The translations under genes and the position numbers were made by a program. Positions 1-18,870 of a DNA stretch of 33,960 nt are shown piece after piece. The stretch's first letter is position 1. Every line of letters begins with the position of its first letter. Under the pieces are notes generated by a model. That model made no database searches, was not told where the DNA came from, and worked only from the letters and a program-made list of their open reading frames with translations. The DNA is from a virus: positions 1-33,960 of IMG/VR virus record IMGVR_UViG_3300025133_000369. One strand, written 5' to 3'.

Positions 1-763
1 GATAGCCATGTTCATCAACGACAAAAGAAGCTTTTGCTTTCGGGCGTGTCAGCCAAATGCGCAAAGAATAAGCATAGATCATAGCTTTTCCGCCGGGCGT
101 CATATATGGCGTAGTCATCGCTTCAGATGGCGAACGAGTGATATTCGTTTTTAACTGATTGAGCACTAAAAATGCTGATTGACTATTAGCTAAAGGAATG
201 GTCAACTTGGACATCGCCTTTGCTAAAATTCTTGGCTTTACAGCCATTGATGATTGCGGGTTAAAGTCACCTTCCAAATCTGAAACAGAAGGAGTGAGAG
301 CCAAGCTGTCCCAAATAAACAAAAACTGACTGTCCGTAGACTTTAGTAGTTCTTCCATTGTCTCCATGACAAATTCTACTGATGTCGCTTGGATATAAAG
401 AATTTTTGATGCGTCGCAACCGGCCTTCTCTAAAAAAGTAAAGTCTAGCGAGGATTCTGAATCAAAATAAACTACGTCAATACCCATTTTTTGAGCATTT
501 CCAGCTATTTGGGCAGCCATATACGATTTACCACTAGCTTCAAGGCCAGCGATTTCGGTTACTTTTCCCACTGGGATTCCAGCTACTTTGCCTCTACAAA
601 CTATACTATCTAGCCAGCGTGAGCCTGTAGGTATCCATTGTTTAACTATAGTTGGATTGTTTTCATTGGCTAAGTCAACTGCTACTTGTTGCCCAGCTTT
701 TTTATTTATTAGTTTTCTCATCTGATCGATCGATAGGCGACCGGCTTTTTCTTTTTTAGCCAT
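1..763 (-). CDS. uvsX: RecA/UvsX-like recombinase, 3' end outside window
   Basis: Strand-exchange ATPase for homologous recombination and recombination-dependent replication. The visible 254 residues have Walker A GLEASGKS (about 73-80), a catalytic-glutamate region YFDSES (E103), Walker B FLFIWDS (147-153) and the switch segment LNQLKTNI (201-208), equivalent to the glutamine-containing INQIR-type motif of RecA. These motifs look closer to bacterial RecA than to T4 UvsX, although the context is T4-like. The ATG at 761-763 overlaps the stop of the upstream gene by 8 nt, and an AAGGAG lies about 11 nt before it inside that gene. The reading frame is open to base 1, so the C-terminal part, including part of the DNA-binding region, is missing here. 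It works with the gp32-like protein and the polymerase encoded just upstream. Confidence 0.93.
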   Translation of the reverse strand, partial: MAKKEKAGRLSIDQMRKLINKKAGQQVAVDLANENNPTIVKQWIPTGSRWLDSIVCRGKVAGIPVGKVTEIAGLEASGKSYMAAQIAGNAQKMGIDVVYFDSESSLDFTFLEKAGCDASKILYIQATSVEFVMETMEELLKSTDSQFLFIWDSLALTPSVSDLEGDFNPQSSMAVKPRILAKAMSKLTIPLANSQSAFLVLNQLKTNITRSPSEAMTTPYMTPGGKAMIYAYSLRIWLTRPKAKASFVVDEHGY

Positions 764-1073
764 CTAATTTACTACTCCTTGAAACTTTAAATGCATGACA
801 GCAGCTTCTAAATCCTTTTTTGTCCATTTTGATTCCTACTGTTTCCTCGTAATCATCGAGTTGCAAAATATAATCACTACTTCTAGCAATTATATTTGCG
901 ATATCGCTATTATCAGACCAAAACCAGACAAAGCCTTGTTTTAGATCTCCTTTGTTTGAATTCACGGCTGATTCGCTTTCGGGGCCGCCGCCTAGGCCTT
1001 TGAAGCGGTTGGCTACGGCTCGGATGTTTTCTAAAAATCTTGCCTCTCCGCGTTTATAAGTTTTTCTTGTCAT
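756..1073 (-). CDS. Small protein of unknown function
   Basis: A 105-residue protein I do not recognise. The N-terminus is basic (MTRKTYKRGEARFLENIRAVA) and is followed by a Gly/Pro/Ser-rich segment (FKGLGGGPESESAVNSN), probably a flexible linker. A compact second half contains FVWFWSDNSDIANIIARSS. It ends with two cysteines (SCCHAFKV) close to the stop. The ATG has a strong AAAGGAG about 5 nt upstream. The gene overlaps the recombinase start by 8 nt, so translation of the two is probably coupled, and its position between the gp32-like and RecA-like genes suggests, without proving, an accessory role in replication or recombination. Confidence 0.7.
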   Translation of the reverse strand: MTRKTYKRGEARFLENIRAVANRFKGLGGGPESESAVNSNKGDLKQGFVWFWSDNSDIANIIARSSDYILQLDDYEETVGIKMDKKGFRSCCHAFKVSRSSKLDG

Positions 1074-1084
1074 TTTTCTCCTTT

Positions 1085-1411
1085 TTACTGTACGTGGGAT
1101 TGTTGTGGATCCCCCTTGATTAAGCCATATCGATCACTCATTGAATGCCAATCCTCATAAAGAGTGTGTATGCTGACATGAACGTTTGTCTTTTTAATTT
1201 CATAAGCGGTGCCTGGGGCAGTATTGTATTTAAAGTGTTGTTGGCCTCCTGAAACAACGATACGTCCACATTCGCACTCTCTCACATCTTCGTGTGCGCG
1301 CGAATAAACAGCGACGTTGCACTCTTTGCACTCAACTATAGTAATTAACACATTTTTTCCTTTCGAGATATCTCGTTTGTAGATAAAAAATTGAGGCATC
1401 TGTAAACCCAT
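1085..1411 (-). CDS. Small zinc-binding-like protein (CxxC...CxCG motif)
   Basis: A 108-residue protein with CKEC (about 28-31) followed by a second cluster, RECECGRIVVSGG (about 44-56). The order CxxC, then a His/Arg stretch, then CxCGxIxxxGG matches a family of small phage proteins of unknown function that I recall as DUF7695-like. The cysteine spacing suggests a zinc ribbon. Function unknown. The start is uncertain. A GGGAGG lies only one base before the first ATG (1411). A second in-frame ATG (residue 5, MPQFFIY) sits about 13 nt from it. The gene lies in the replication cluster, 10-20 nt from each neighbour. Confidence 0.72.
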   Translation of the reverse strand: MGLQMPQFFIYKRDISKGKNVLITIVECKECNVAVYSRAHEDVRECECGRIVVSGGQQHFKYNTAPGTAYEIKKTNVHVSIHTLYEDWHSMSDRYGLIKGDPQQSHVQ

Positions 1412-1432: not shown

Positions 1433-2182
1433 TTAACCTAGCAGTTCAGAAAAAGCTTTATCAACCGGACTTTCGTTCGTATTTGTTGATGTAGCAGAAT
1501 CTACGCTAGTCGTAAAAGATGCCTCTTCGGAATTCAAGAAATTATCTAAAATTTCCTTAACTTCCACTGAAGTTTTCCGGGAAGAAGAGAATACTTCGTC
1601 AAAGTCAGGGACCGAGCCCATCATTGACGCAGCAGTGGCACTATCCTTGTGAAGAGGAGAAGACTTACGGCGAGGCGTAATCTTCGTCTCCGGAAAGGAT
1701 GCACCGGCTGGCTTTGTATAAGTGACAACCAAATCCGTACCGGTTTCAGCATCAGTAATGTCTCCGTATTCAGGATTCAAAACCAACCCCAGAAGCGTTT
1801 CATAAGCACGTTTACCGAAGCCCCAGACTTTTACGCCTTCATCTTCGCGGCCACGTACCACTACTGGCGCGAAAAAACGCTGTTTTGCGCTCAACTTACG
1901 AGCCATACGCTTCGATTCCTCTGAACCGTCCTTCCACAATGCGCGGACGTACGTATCTAGAGGACAATCTTCTCCAAAATTGCGTTTTGGGGAAAGAAAG
2001 CCCGAGGCGCCGCCAACATCGTAATGGAACCAAAAATCCTTGAAAGGATCGCCATCAGCGGGTAGTACCAAACGTACAGTTTGTTCTCCCTCTTCAGGCT
2101 TCCAAAAGTTGTTGCTCGACTTGTCGCCGCGGGTCTTAAGGGTCTCCATGCGCGAACGCATTTTATTCATATCAATAGCCAT
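1433..2182 (-). CDS. gp32: gp32-like single-stranded DNA-binding protein
   Basis: Binds and protects single-stranded DNA during replication, recombination and repair, and coordinates polymerase and recombinase. At 249 residues it is a little shorter than T4 gp32 (301). The core carries the family pattern: FWKPEEGEQTVRLVLP (about 26-41), DFWFHYDVGG (49-58), SPKRNFGEDCPL (64-75) and KVWGFGKRAYETLL (118-131), followed by an OB-fold segment with DLVVTYTKPAG. The C-terminus is a Ser/Thr-rich, mildly acidic tail ending in DKAFSELLG, as expected for a protein-interaction tail. T4 gp32 holds zinc with His64 and three cysteines; here only one cysteine (C73) is present, so the zinc ribbon appears to be lost. 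AAAGGAG lies about 7 nt before the ATG. Confidence 0.88.
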   Translation of the reverse strand: MAIDMNKMRSRMETLKTRGDKSSNNFWKPEEGEQTVRLVLPADGDPFKDFWFHYDVGGASGFLSPKRNFGEDCPLDTYVRALWKDGSEESKRMARKLSAKQRFFAPVVVRGREDEGVKVWGFGKRAYETLLGLVLNPEYGDITDAETGTDLVVTYTKPAGASFPETKITPRRKSSPLHKDSATAASMMGSVPDFDEVFSSSRKTSVEVKEILDNFLNSEEASFTTSVDSATSTNTNESPVDKAFSELLG

Positions 2183-2231: not shown

Positions 2232-3080
2232 TTAGAGTGCTAGTTGTTGTATCAAAGTACTACTTTTTTCACAATAAGCAATTAGCTCATCGTAATCGGT
2301 TGAAAAAACCGAATAGGTTATTTTCATTCTATCATGTTCAATATTAGATTTTAAGTTTAATTGTATTGCCTCCATCAATGTTTCATCTTCCTCTAATCTT
2401 TTTTTTGGAACTCCATAATAATAATTTTTTTCTCTTGGAATGTCAAGAGAAAAGAACAATTTTTCTTCATTATTTTCCACATCCAATATGCCTAGTGTAC
2501 TAACGCGAGCAGTAGGGTACCTATTAGTCGTCGTCGTGAGAACCGGTTTTGAATGGTCAAATACATTAATCATGTGGTATGTGGAAGTTATCAATGTGTT
2601 TAAAGAATCTTTGTGTTTCATTATTGGTACTGGGCCTATTATATCAGAAATCTTTTGATTGTCAAGTAAATAAACTCTTTTAAATAAGCCGGAGCGCGCG
2701 TATTCTTGGAACACGTTGAAAAGCAAGTTGTTTTGATATGCTTTGTCTCCAACTAACTCTATTCTTTCTGGAATAATATATATGACTGTAATGTTAGTGT
2801 GGTCTTTGATTTTAGATAAAATAGATAAAGCAGCGCCAGACACCATGCCACAACTGGTGATAAATAATGTTTCGGACATCACCCCCTCTTGCAAATACTT
2901 TACTATGCCACGTGGCAAGTTTTCTTCATACAGTTCTGGGGATGCCTGACGCTTAAGACCAAAAGAAGTCTTGGTCTTTTTTAATCCTTCATCTAACTTA
3001 ATTATTTTATATTGTGGATATTGTTTAAATTGGTCAGCAATATTACATCCTGCTTGACCTAAACCTATTACGGTTTGCAT
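2232..3080 (-). CDS. Divergent tubulin/FtsZ-like GTPase-fold protein
   Basis: A 282-residue protein that reads as a divergent tubulin/FtsZ superfamily member. The N-terminus VIGLGQAGCNIADQF (4-18) matches the first beta strand and T1 loop of FtsZ (IIGVGGAGCNAV-like). FITSCGMVSGAALSI (73-87) sits where FtsZ and tubulin have the GGGTGSG signature loop and keeps only part of it. It is followed by VIYIIPERIELVGDKAYQN (99-117), similar to the FtsZ segment after the signature loop, and VYLLDNQKIS (136-145), like the strand and Asn-containing loop near the nucleotide. The long H7-like helix (159-174) is followed by no clear NxDxxD/E T7 catalytic motif, so GTP hydrolysis may be weak or absent. It starts 10 nt after the polymerase stop with GAGGA as ribosome binding site. 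Homology is inferred by eye; I am fairly confident of the fold, less of filament formation. Confidence 0.72.
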   Translation of the reverse strand: MQTVIGLGQAGCNIADQFKQYPQYKIIKLDEGLKKTKTSFGLKRQASPELYEENLPRGIVKYLQEGVMSETLFITSCGMVSGAALSILSKIKDHTNITVIYIIPERIELVGDKAYQNNLLFNVFQEYARSGLFKRVYLLDNQKISDIIGPVPIMKHKDSLNTLITSTYHMINVFDHSKPVLTTTTNRYPTARVSTLGILDVENNEEKLFFSLDIPREKNYYYGVPKKRLEEDETLMEAIQLNLKSNIEHDRMKITYSVFSTDYDELIAYCEKSSTLIQQLAL

Positions 3081-3090
3081 ATTTTCCTCG

Positions 3091-4278
3091 TTATTTGATA
3101 TATAGGCTTTTCATATCTGCCCAGTTTTTACCGCCGAGACAATTAACCTTAAATTTTCCAAATCTAGTATTACTAAATAGCTCTTTAATCTCATTAAACT
3201 CATATTCTTGTTCGGTGTGCAAATCAATCATTATACTGTCATGATTGCAAAATTTAATAAAACTTTTTTTATCTTGAAGGTAATTCCACACCTTATACAT
3301 TTGCTCAAATACTAAATCGGCTGCTGTTGATTGTACGAGATAGTTTACAGCATGATCTTCATCACACTCTATTTCTCGTCCATATGGGGTAATTACTTTA
3401 TTTTGCTTATAATACAAAGTTTTGAGTTTTTCCCGGTCGTAAATCTTACTAACGTTGTCATCCTTGTTGTTGGGGTTGTAAAGCCATGCAAATATACGTT
3501 TTTTAGCATTATCGCGTGATTTTGCCCTAGTAAAGACATGTTTGAGGTTCCAATCATGGAGATCTTCTTCTGGCTGCTCTTGTCCTAGGAGCGCTAGCGC
3601 TGTGCGTAACTCGCATGCGTTATAGTCCATTTCAAAAAGCCATCTGTTTGTCGGCGTTAATACATTCCTATATTTTTTAGCCAATGTCATGATAGGGAAA
3701 GAACCTTTTTTTGTGCTTAAGCGTCCTGTAACAGTTTTATTTATGCTATAATCGATTGTTAAGTTGTTTTTGCTAAGAGTCCTGTAGATGTTTTTGTCCT
3801 GCACCGTAAGGCGTGGGCAATTATCTAAATTGATTGATAGTCTGTGTTGTTTTATATCAGCGGCAACCTTTGTAATTTTCAAAAGCTGTTCGTAATTGTC
3901 TGGTTTGTTGTAATTCTGAAATATATTCTCGCAAATCGTATTTTTTATTTCGGCCCACTGCTTGAGGAGATGCCTAGGCATAAGATCATATATACATATC
4001 TCCTCTAGATTCAAACCCACGTTTTGTGAACTCTTTAAAACTGCTTTAATTCTTTTTTGAATTGATTCGAATTCCGATTTTTTTCCAACGGGACACAATT
4101 CGGATAACGTCTGCTGTGAAGATAGCGCGTAGATTGATGCATATTCAATGTCTTTGCCTCTTAAGTGGTTGGCGTACGCCCAGGTTTTTGTGCAGCCCGG
4201 GCTGACGGAATCATAAAATCTACCATTTTTATAAACCATGGTACATATTTCTTTGTCATCAAACGTCTGAAAGATCAT
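3091..4278 (-). CDS. Short family A DNA polymerase without exonuclease domain
   Basis: DNA polymerase of the PolI/T7 type. TGRLS (184-188), motif A LFEMDYNACELRTAL (214-228, catalytic D218), motif B RxxxKxxxFxxxY (R255, K259, F263, Y267, then N instead of the usual G), QSTAADLV (316-323) and motif C CNHDSIMI (344-351, catalytic D347) appear in the correct order. Motif C has HDS instead of HDE. At 395 residues it is much shorter than PolI or T7 gp5. The first 130 residues show no DEDD 3'-5' exonuclease motifs, so proofreading, if any, must come from another protein. T4-like phages normally encode a family B polymerase (gp43), so this is unusual. The ATG overlaps the stop of the preceding structural gene as ATGA. 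Confidence 0.87.
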   Translation of the reverse strand: MIFQTFDDKEICTMVYKNGRFYDSVSPGCTKTWAYANHLRGKDIEYASIYALSSQQTLSELCPVGKKSEFESIQKRIKAVLKSSQNVGLNLEEICIYDLMPRHLLKQWAEIKNTICENIFQNYNKPDNYEQLLKITKVAADIKQHRLSINLDNCPRLTVQDKNIYRTLSKNNLTIDYSINKTVTGRLSTKKGSFPIMTLAKKYRNVLTPTNRWLFEMDYNACELRTALALLGQEQPEEDLHDWNLKHVFTRAKSRDNAKKRIFAWLYNPNNKDDNVSKIYDREKLKTLYYKQNKVITPYGREIECDEDHAVNYLVQSTAADLVFEQMYKVWNYLQDKKSFIKFCNHDSIMIDLHTEQEYEFNEIKELFSNTRFGKFKVNCLGGKNWADMKSLYIK

Positions 4279-15597: not shown

Positions 15598-18500
15598 TTA
15601 GTCTTCAAATGCTGCGCCGGAATCTGTTAGAATGAAGTCAATAGCTATATATTCAATGGCCCGGGCAGGCTTAATATAAATTTTTGCATATACAATGTTT
15701 CTATCTACTAAATCTGGAGTGGTAGTTGTCTCATCCAAAATTAATTTGAAGTCTGTAATCCCCATACCTGCCTGAACGGCGCGCAAGAAGGGCGCTACTT
15801 GTCCAGAAAATCTACTCCAAGTTACTTGAACATTCTGGTCAAACAACACAGTTGCTGCAAATCGGGAGATTTGCCTCTTAAGATAAATCAACAACCGTCG
15901 AATATTGATTCGATCTAATGCTGATTCTGATATCTGCATTGTCTTTTGGCCAAAAATTACAATTCCTTCAGCCGGAAACTGTGCAATTGGGTTGATGTTG
16001 GCCTCATATAAGCGATCTCTCTCTTTGGAGGTTAATCTTTGTCGCACGGAAACAATTGGTAGTCCCGCGCGGCCATCAGATAGGCCACCTCTAGTGAAAC
16101 CGGCAGGTGCGAACCAAACGTTACTCGTACGCTGGCTATAAGACATAGCGCCCAATGCGGCTATCGATGGGGGTGCCCATATTGCTTGGCCGCTATTTTG
16201 ATCTCTTATTTGTACCCATGGGTAATATGAAGCTGCGTAGCTAGAATTAATAATTAACTCATCTTTGAGATTGTTAATCGTAGTATCAATACTGCCTTTT
16301 CTATCTTCACTTGACCGAGTATCTTCGTAACGTGACACATAACCTCCTTTGAGGTCAACAATTGCCAAGGCATCACCTCTATTCTCACACAAGTCAATCA
16401 AAGACTGATTAAGAGAATTGTTGATAATTCCAGGCATGCATGCCAAATCATATTCGACTTCTTCTTTGTCTCTCAAAGAATCTATTGCAATTTGCACAGA
16501 GTTAAAAACATAGTTGGCTGTGGCTGAATTTGTGGCGCCGTCTTTGTTAACAATTCTTAAAGGCTCTGACTCTTTAATATTTAAGCCGTCGAAGCCGCCA
16601 AAGAAAACAGTTGTAAATCGGTCAACGCCGTTATCTAGAACCGTATTATAAGCGTTGGAGCCGCGGAGATACTGCAAATCAGTGCCTTCTACATTTCCAG
16701 AAGCGTCTTTTGCGCTCAATCTAGAGCCTGCGCGATAGACAAAGTTTTTATTGGCTATGGCGCCGGTGTGGCACATATCATCCAAAGTAAAGCGCCATGA
16801 CACTGCTGAAACGCTATCAGCACTATCATCCGAGAAGTTGGCCACGTTTGATGGCCTTATTTTGAGATGATCGCGTACGCTGGAGTTGAGTCTTGATGTG
16901 TTAAAAGTCGTATCAACTCCATAATAAGCACTAGTGGGATCAGTTGGCGTTCCTTGAGATGCTGATGCTCTGAGTCTCAAAGTCGGGAATCCAAATTCGA
17001 TATCTCCGTTCGTGGCGCCTTCGATAAACGTTGTTACTGTTTCTCCAAAGCTACCTAGGTTACCGGAAACGGCTGAATCGGCCACTTGTGTATGAGTTGT
17101 AAGATCCTTCCATGAATTATAGATCATTGGACCTTCAGTGCCCCATGGGAGATATCTAGGATCAGTATCGCCCATCATCACTTCGGAATCTATTTCAACG
17201 CGAATGTATTTCGAGCGATTTTGATAGTCGCCGAATCTCTCATAGCGATGGTCTGCGTCGTTCCAAGTTTGTTTCATATCGCCAATCTTTCGGCCAATAT
17301 AGTTAGCGGATCCAGGGTTAAGGTTACAATTGTTAAATTGTTCAATAACGGAAATTCTATTGTCTGTATCGCTAATTTGCCGTATTACAACGCTGAAGCT
17401 ACCATACGGATCCACTTCATCGTTTTGAGAAGCTCTTAAGTCTTTGATTGAAACCTTAAGATTTCGAGCGGCCCAATCTCCACTATTTTGTGCGACAAGT
17501 CTAAATAGCTTCTGTTGATTGGCGACAACAAAGCTGCCAGTTGCACTGGAGCCAAGATTTAAATCCTGGCCGAAGAACCAGCCGGTTTTGGCGTCTTGAT
17601 AAGTCTTTCTGGTTTTTCCGCCAAATATGTCTTGAGTGAGGTTCATCAAAGGCATTATTACGCCAAGTTGCGCAGTAGAATTAGCGCCAAGCTCTTCTTT
17701 TAGGGCGCCTTCGTAACTTTCGCCCAACCAATATGGAGTTGTGTCCGAAACTGCATCGGAATTAGTGAGGATTGGATTCGTGTTATAGATTCGTCTAATG
17801 AATTTATCACTAGTAGGTGTAAAGTTAAAGCTACTATCCGAGATAACACCATCAGAAGAATGGCTTATTTGTAGTTTAAATTCCTGATTCGCTGTAGAAT
17901 CGATGTATTTGCATAATCCTAAGTCGCTAGCTCCACTAGTTGAGTTTGTTCCAGATAGTCCAATATTGCAGCCTTCGTCAATATACCATACTGCGGCTAG
18001 CGTGCCGGTTGCAGGCGCGTAAGAAGCCGACATGGTTCCAGTGAGCGCCTTAACTAGAGCAACACCGCCAATTGATACTGCAGTAAAGGAGGCGGTGCCT
18101 ATGTTGTCGACAGCGGTGCCGCTATGCCATGCCATATCTGTACCAAGATTTAAACTTCCTAGTAAACCAGTAGAAGCGTTTGATGTGATAGTGACAACGT
18201 TGCTGAGCGCGGTAGCGTTAGCATAAGATGTTAAACTTATTACTGCGGCTAAGTTGGTTGCAGTTGTGGCTGCGGTCTGTGAGGCAGAGAACGACATTGT
18301 TGACGCTAACGTTGTCGAAGTCGTCGAACCGGTTCTAAACGTGGCGGGTACGCCGTTTGCGGTGAGAAATAAGTGGGTATTTTCCATCGTGCCAGTTGGA
18401 CAGGTAATCGCCGCCGTCAAGACAGTTGCTGTGGGTCTTTCGGCTACAAATAAGCCAAAGGCGCCGCCGTTGTCCGTTGCCGCGGCTGCCGGGACAGTTT

Positions 18501-18870
18501 TGGTTGTTTGCCAGCCAGCTTCTCCATCTCCAGTCGTTAAAGCGTCCAGATTTTGTTTTCCGCCTAGGCGTACAAACGTAATTGTTGGGTTGTTGCGTAG
18601 CCATGCTTGTGCGGCGTACGCTGCATAAGTCGGAGAAGTATAATTTCCATTTCTTACAATATCACCTCCTCTGCCGCCAGCGATTGGCGCCCCGAATACA
18701 TCAACAAACTGAGAAAATGAATCAACACGTGTTGGTTTTAATATTGGTCCCTTTTCGCTTCGACCAATTATGACGGGGCCTATTGTTCCCGCAGTAGCAT
18801 TTCTACCGGTGTTGTCTATTTCGCTAACAAAAATTCCGGGCGAAATAAATTTGTACTTATCAACTGACAT
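15598..18870 (-). CDS. gp18: Contractile tail sheath protein (gp18-like), enlarged
   Basis: Forms the contractile sheath around the tube. The N-terminus FISPGIFVSEIDNTGRN (about 8-24) and GPVIIGRSEKGP (about 31-42) and the C-terminal domain (LLIYLKRQISRFAATVLFDQ; then FLRAVQAGMGITDFKLILDE; then IYIKPARAIEYIAIDFILT) match the sheath family. At 1090 residues it is much longer than T4 gp18 (659). A Thr/Ala/Ser-rich, beta-prone region at roughly 130-290, ahead of the conserved central domains, looks like an inserted, surface-exposed domain. AAGGAG precedes the ATG by 9 nt. Tube genes follow immediately. Confidence 0.93.
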   Translation of the reverse strand: MSVDKYKFISPGIFVSEIDNTGRNATAGTIGPVIIGRSEKGPILKPTRVDSFSQFVDVFGAPIAGGRGGDIVRNGNYTSPTYAAYAAQAWLRNNPTITFVRLGGKQNLDALTTGDGEAGWQTTKTVPAAAATDNGGAFGLFVAERPTATVLTAAITCPTGTMENTHLFLTANGVPATFRTGSTTSTTLASTMSFSASQTAATTATNLAAVISLTSYANATALSNVVTITSNASTGLLGSLNLGTDMAWHSGTAVDNIGTASFTAVSIGGVALVKALTGTMSASYAPATGTLAAVWYIDEGCNIGLSGTNSTSGASDLGLCKYIDSTANQEFKLQISHSSDGVISDSSFNFTPTSDKFIRRIYNTNPILTNSDAVSDTTPYWLGESYEGALKEELGANSTAQLGVIMPLMNLTQDIFGGKTRKTYQDAKTGWFFGQDLNLGSSATGSFVVANQQKLFRLVAQNSGDWAARNLKVSIKDLRASQNDEVDPYGSFSVVIRQISDTDNRISVIEQFNNCNLNPGSANYIGRKIGDMKQTWNDADHRYERFGDYQNRSKYIRVEIDSEVMMGDTDPRYLPWGTEGPMIYNSWKDLTTHTQVADSAVSGNLGSFGETVTTFIEGATNGDIEFGFPTLRLRASASQGTPTDPTSAYYGVDTTFNTSRLNSSVRDHLKIRPSNVANFSDDSADSVSAVSWRFTLDDMCHTGAIANKNFVYRAGSRLSAKDASGNVEGTDLQYLRGSNAYNTVLDNGVDRFTTVFFGGFDGLNIKESEPLRIVNKDGATNSATANYVFNSVQIAIDSLRDKEEVEYDLACMPGIINNSLNQSLIDLCENRGDALAIVDLKGGYVSRYEDTRSSEDRKGSIDTTINNLKDELIINSSYAASYYPWVQIRDQNSGQAIWAPPSIAALGAMSYSQRTSNVWFAPAGFTRGGLSDGRAGLPIVSVRQRLTSKERDRLYEANINPIAQFPAEGIVIFGQKTMQISESALDRINIRRLLIYLKRQISRFAATVLFDQNVQVTWSRFSGQVAPFLRAVQAGMGITDFKLILDETTTTPDLVDRNIVYAKIYIKPARAIEYIAIDFILTDSGAAFED

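Follow-up and report, generated by a model that had tools for sequence, protein, structure and literature searches.

We describe a phage protein, here called TUB, that is a diverged tubulin/FtsZ homolog turned into a fixed part of the replication operon in one large clade of T4-like phages. Its predicted structure is unambiguously of the tubulin/FtsZ fold, and its gene is a marker of that uncultured clade. Conserved pocket residues suggest that TUB binds guanine nucleotide, and the loss of the T7 loop and helix H8 argues against its turnover by the canonical GTPase mechanism.

A conserved gene in a phage replication operon

The window, by which we mean the whole 33,960-base stretch of DNA analyzed, is a fragment of a virus record (IMGVR_UViG_3300025133_000369) that includes a block of T4-like structural genes. 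The large terminase shares 44% identity with its counterpart in Flavobacterium phage immuto and 43% with the one in Microcystis phage Mel-JY01. A 1,090-aa protein encoded at 15598-18870 is related to the product of an RM378 gene whose annotation notes a similarity to tail sheath (phmmer, E 3e-37). Every gene discussed below is encoded on the minus strand, and in the direction of transcription the left end of the window encodes a 476-aa protein, a family A DNA polymerase (polA), TUB, a gp32-like single-strand DNA-binding protein (SSB), proteins of 108 and 105 aa, and a UvsX recombinase cut by the window edge (Table 1). The TUB reading frame delimited in a preliminary description of this DNA proved exact, with an ATG start and 282 codons on the minus strand, and its placement inside a T4-like replication cluster, between a polymerase (PF00476) and an SSB (PF08804), was borne out. 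In the loci that were read, polA adjoins TUB on the upstream side, and only in the near clade does the operon include genes for the 108-aa (DUF7695) and 105-aa proteins.

A search of INPHARED at E 1e-5 gave no match to the window polymerase. In relatives, the region downstream encodes a DnaB-like helicase along with a 5'-3' exonuclease as a separate protein (locus L036), and near the replication operon lie genes for a B12-dependent-type ribonucleotide reductase (RNR), for ThyX, and for a phosphomannomutase-like protein of eukaryotic type (E 3e-34).

Table 1. Features of TUB, its operon, and related loci; positions are those of the window unless a locus is named.
Feature	Position	Strand	Basis
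TUB, predicted tubulin/FtsZ-fold protein, 282 aa	2232..3080	-	ORF, ATG start
T1 loop, residues 6-13, GLGQAGCN	3042..3065	-	Aligns with FtsZ GVGGGGGN
T3-like segment, residues 47-52, SPELYE	2925..2942	-	hhalign pairing with FtsZ NPEVG
Rebuilt T4 loop, residues 76-82, SCGMVSG	2835..2855	-	Paired with FtsZ GGGTGTG, 3-residue deletion
N141, first residue past strand S6, at the FtsZ guanine-contact Asn position	2658..2660	-	Aligned with N of the FtsZ IPND motif
Central helix H7, residues 153-175	2556..2624	-	AF2 secondary structure, both models
H7 residues 157-161 (aromatic position 157 and N161)	2598..2612	-	In register with FtsZ guanine contacts
Loop 176-192, replacing FtsZ T7 and helix H8	2505..2555	-	AF2 models and alignment
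C-terminal domain, residues 193-274 (S7, hairpin, S8, H10, S9, S10)	2259..2504	-	AF2 secondary structure
Family A DNA polymerase, 395 aa, polymerase part only	3091..4278	-	PF00476 E 7.8e-14; phrog_17 E 1.6e-18
gp32-like single-strand DNA-binding protein	1433..2182	-	PF08804 E 3.3e-13; phrog_1192 E 1.6e-22; directly downstream of TUB
108-aa zinc-ribbon-like protein (DUF7695)	1085..1411	-	PF24749 E 2.3e-8; position across loci
105-aa protein, no family assigned	756..1073	-	Position across loci
UvsX/RecA-like recombinase, truncated by window edge	2..763	-	Synteny with annotated RecA/RadA recombinases of Mel-JY01 and immuto
A8 protein, examples (the third is immuto gene 2) and relatives	L298:3487-3897, L310:2485-2883, L162:1346-1801		
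Genes near the replication operon of relatives (RNR, ThyX, phosphomannomutase-like set)	L036:16771-18633, L036:19571-20299, L100:17258-17896		

TUB is a real gene under purifying selection rather than a chance reading frame, because at least 555 of 600 candidate stretches from IMG/VR encode relatives (at least 554 of 600 with a second query) and dN/dS against near relatives is ~0.1. E values in this related-locus search are relative to its own candidate set. The closest relatives are 86% identical to the window protein and the most distant 37%; 81 distinct members make up the family alignment, and each of seven large contigs (95 to 190 kb) has a single copy. No TUB was found by tblastn among the 50,697 phage records of INPHARED or by a pattern scan of GTDB genomes. 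Scans against PHROGs gave no convincing family, and a search of PDB sequences with hmmsearch returned chance matches only, such as SirA.

Predicted fold

The likeness of TUB to FtsZ is suggestive at the level of sequence. The Pfam Tubulin family matches the window protein weakly (E 0.006; 17.4 bits, below the curated cutoff of 33 bits for PF00091), and 14 of 21 members gave such weak matches, the best at E 0.0013. Alignment with an FtsZ profile by hhalign scored 27.1 over 170 collinear columns; 200 column shuffles run as a control had a mean score of 14.8 (SD 2.8). Since the best shuffle reached 27.6 and the shuffles averaged ~24 columns, the claim for the fold is carried by structure.

An AlphaFold2 (AF2) model of the window protein, built with 81 relatives, had a pLDDT of 94.3 and a pTM of 0.91, and when a deep member of the family (L140) served as the lead sequence of another run, the values were 91.5 and 0.90 and the order of structural elements was unchanged. 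Both models have the two-domain tubulin/FtsZ architecture, consisting of a Rossmann GTPase domain, the central helix H7, and a C-terminal domain. In Foldseek searches of the PDB, FtsZ was the best match to the window model (E 1.3e-12; TM 0.70 by query), followed by TubZ, and came first for the L140 model (E 6.7e-12), followed by TubZ and tubulin; with both models, the matches had E values of ~1e-11 to 1e-12 and TM scores of 0.6 to 0.7 by query, and they aligned the whole chain at 12-13% identity. The best match in the viral structure library BFVD was A0A6J5RW92 (TM 0.77 by query), which comes from an uncultured Caudovirales phage and is annotated as an FtsZ cell division GTPase; it differs from TUB in its length of 452 aa and is 14% identical to it. 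The two models and their matches to FtsZ and TubZ thus place the entire protein in the tubulin/FtsZ fold, as the preliminary description had supposed.

Nucleotide pocket

The loop GLGQAGCN, likened to the first loop of FtsZ when only the letters had been read, aligns with T1 and is nearly invariant, with G6, G8, A10, and G11 present in all 81 members and C12 in 80. The T3-like segment is similarly conserved (E49, 80/81; Y51, 79/81; E52, 81/81). The signature loop SCGMVSG had been called altered, and it does correspond to a T4 that is rebuilt and shortened relative to GGGTGTG of FtsZ. The canonical GGGTG(S/T)G is replaced by SCGxVSG in most members and by GGSGxxSG/A, which reads as an intermediate form, in the deep ones; G78 and S81 are each kept in 80 of 81.

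In FtsZ, guanine is contacted by an Asn after strand S6, by a Phe of H7 that stacks on it, and by an Asn or Asp of the same helix. TUB has counterparts of all three in the register given by the FtsZ alignment. Position 141 is Asn in 80 of the 81 members; position 157, which matches the stacking Phe, is W, Y, F, or H in 76, although it is K in the window protein itself; and N161, four residues on and matching the contact Asn/Asp, is present in 80. Because these pocket residues are conserved, TUB most likely binds guanine nucleotide in the standard pocket, through T1, the T3-like segment, N141, aromatic residue 157, and N161, with some uncertainty introduced by the alteration of T4, the main phosphate-binding loop.

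Loss of the T7 loop and helix H8

In tubulin-type hydrolysis, a subunit uses its T7 loop and helix H8 to complete the active site of its neighbor. Both AF2 models instead show a confident loop from H7 to S7, with no H8, and the catalytic acid of T7 (NxDFxD in FtsZ, Glu in tubulin) has no conserved counterpart, no position among residues 172-195 being acidic in more than 53% of members. The canonical T7 loop is therefore absent, as first suspected; R192, in the same segment, is kept in 80 of 81 members. An hhalign match of INVF to NVDFADV, the T7 motif of FtsZ, was rejected because it needs a 10-residue gap inside H7, which is continuous in both models. TUB also has no helix H9 in the AF2 secondary structure, and its chain ends ~8 residues past S10. 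Because the T7 loop and H8 are missing, we infer that standard tubulin-type hydrolysis would not be possible in TUB. PhuZ, tubulin, and FtsZ build their protofilament interface from T7, the base of H8, and other surface loops (PMC3678025), so that a standard dynamic protofilament would be unexpected of a protein without H8 and the T7 acids.

Further conserved residues are found at the C-terminal ends of H5 (Q125, R129, and S130) and H7 (H169 and N172) and at R192. Judged from the topology, these would lie at the face opposite the nucleotide and would fit a head-to-tail or partner interface; the conserved ends of H5 and H7 may alternatively reflect packing of the core.

Distribution among T4-like phages

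Wherever the contigs reach, in loci down to 37% identity, the 476-aa gene, polA, TUB, gp32, and then UvsX follow one another on one strand, and all loci long enough to include both flanks of TUB have the order polA-TUB-gp32, with the three genes in one orientation. Pairwise identities of TUB and polA across 51 loci were correlated (r 0.894), with TUB slightly more conserved.

TUB was present in 66 of 66 gp32 loci of the window's clade having upstream DNA and in 0 of 83 from a neighboring clade, where polA, gp32, and UvsX keep their order, and these counts are of loci and not of independent events, several contigs being present under more than one locus id. The former were among 70 newly fetched loci, in the other four of which TUB is unseen because the contig starts at gp32 or within ~130 bases of it, too near to hold the gene. 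The latter comprised 80 IMG/VR loci together with Mel-JY01, immuto, and LR756508, picked by gp32 similarity. The complete records of Mel-JY01, immuto, and RM378 and the 484-kb LR756508 record had no TUB match. In a UvsX tree made with a quick method, the sets with and without TUB fall on opposite sides of one fully supported, very long, and saturated branch, so that a single gain or loss of TUB suffices. TUB is a clade marker in uncultured T4-like phages.

Upstream of gp32, often directly, 66 of the 83 neighboring-clade loci encode a conserved protein of ~130 aa (profile A8; motif IHRKKETNTLYTINALN). Found in four of five TUB-less records and in none of six large TUB contigs, it did not occur together with TUB in any record tested. 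This is consistent with, although not proof of, a swap of one replication-operon protein for another. A relationship between A8 and TUB was rejected (hhalign score 15.6 over nine columns), and immuto genes 2 and 3, considered as a split TUB, were unrelated to it on inspection.

Proposed role and alternative readings

The reading that we prefer, tentatively and at somewhat short of an even chance, is that TUB is a static scaffold or cap associated with the replisome, liganded by guanine nucleotide and dead as a canonical GTPase. The protein would hold the nucleotide in the standard pocket without canonical turnover and would act as a stable, nucleotide-liganded scaffold, either a short head-to-tail assembly or a cap and not a dynamic spindle, turnover-driven dynamics being disfavored because T7 and H8 are missing. 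Such a scaffold would hold or regulate a complex of the phage polymerase, SSB, and recombinase. The clade distribution, the fixed place in the operon between polymerase and SSB, and a rate of change close to that of the polymerase speak for a core part in replication and against an accessory function directed at the host, although the neighborhood of TUB, polA, and gp32 in an operon does not prove physical interaction. Possible, and given less weight, is the more specific proposal that TUB is an integral, non-hydrolyzing replisome scaffold or guanine nucleotide sensor in a slot held by the unrelated ~130-aa protein in relatives.

The preliminary description had proposed either a filament or ring that positions replicating phage DNA or interference with host FtsZ, and neither function is preferred here. 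We favor the static scaffold or cap over a cytomotive filament with a noncanonical active site, which seems unlikely. Such a protein would resemble PhuZ or TubZ and position replicating genomes or capsids, and TUB shares its fold with both (for TubZ, TM ~0.6-0.7 by query), is likewise phage encoded, as is PhuZ, and has conserved patches on both ends. The T4 loop of PhuZ is also altered (SMGGASGS), yet PhuZ is reported to be active (PMC3678025). However, H8 and a conserved T7 acid, which are absent from TUB, belong to regions that take part in protofilament contacts (PMC3678025), TUB has no C-terminal extension like H11 of PhuZ, and the hhalign match to PhuZ (P 0.08) covers the N-terminal part only, beyond which no sequence relation is detectable. 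TUB phages are T4-like, and the phiKZ shell protein (chimallin) had no match in four contigs of 185 to 190 kb in a search that had no positive control. TubZ differs in length (~400 residues in solved chains versus 282) and in having the T7 acid; no TubR- or TubY-like neighbor of TUB was identified and the tubRZ(Y) partition locus is absent, as judged from the adjoining genes, polA and gp32.

The static scaffold or cap is also favored over a mimic that would co-assemble with host FtsZ or cap it and so block division during infection, a role that we regard as improbable. FtsZ is the closest solved structure, sharing with TUB the fold, T1, the PE of the T3-like segment, and the guanine-contact positions, and a subunit that lacks T7 might conceivably act as a cap at one end of an FtsZ filament. 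Small phage proteins that block FtsZ provide a precedent: Hdi of T5 (PMC10714956), Kil of lambda (PMC3961180), and Icd of P1 (PMC11897509). An identity to FtsZ of only 12-13%, however, makes a shared interface probably small; TUB differs from FtsZ, moreover, in its T4 loop, in the missing NxDxxD of T7, H8, H9, and C-terminal tail, and in its setting. Unlike the short accessory inhibitors Hdi, Kil, and Icd, it is fixed in a replication operon and changes at a polymerase-like rate.

Canonical FtsZ, complete in T4 (GGGTGTG) and T7 (DFAD) and ~50% identical to bacterial FtsZ, was found with the FtsZ alignment in 49 contigs classed as viral in IMG/VR (L166-L214, up to 101 kb). These loci have no detectable gene in common with the window. 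A scan of viral contigs with an E. coli FtsZ pattern found none.

That TUB might be a Rossmann-type dinucleotide-binding or enzyme domain with a superficial likeness to FtsZ, as the resemblance of T1 (GxGxAG) to NAD-binding motifs and matches to TrkA_N (E 0.17 for the window protein, 0.005 at best among members) could suggest, is highly improbable and already refuted at the level of the predicted fold, because the full-length match includes the C-terminal domain and a check for a better-fitting Rossmann family found only FtsZ and TubZ among the 50 best PDB matches of the window model and only FtsZ, TubZ, and tubulin among those of the second.

Implications

To our knowledge, the phage tubulins characterized to date form dynamic filaments that serve in positioning, in jumbo phages and in plasmid-like prophages. 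The tubulin homolog described here is locked in an operon with polymerase, SSB, and recombinase genes in a large uncultured clade of T4-like phages. Its guanine pocket is apparently kept and the part that gives dynamics is lost, which points to the rebuilding of a cytoskeleton-type protein into a fixed component of the DNA replication system of a virus. The gene can also serve to diagnose this clade, of which the collection searched (INPHARED) contains no isolate. If TUB is part of the replisome, as in the scaffold or cap that we prefer, core replication would be a new kind of function for the tubulin superfamily, and the role of a T7-less tubulin could be tested with one small protein.
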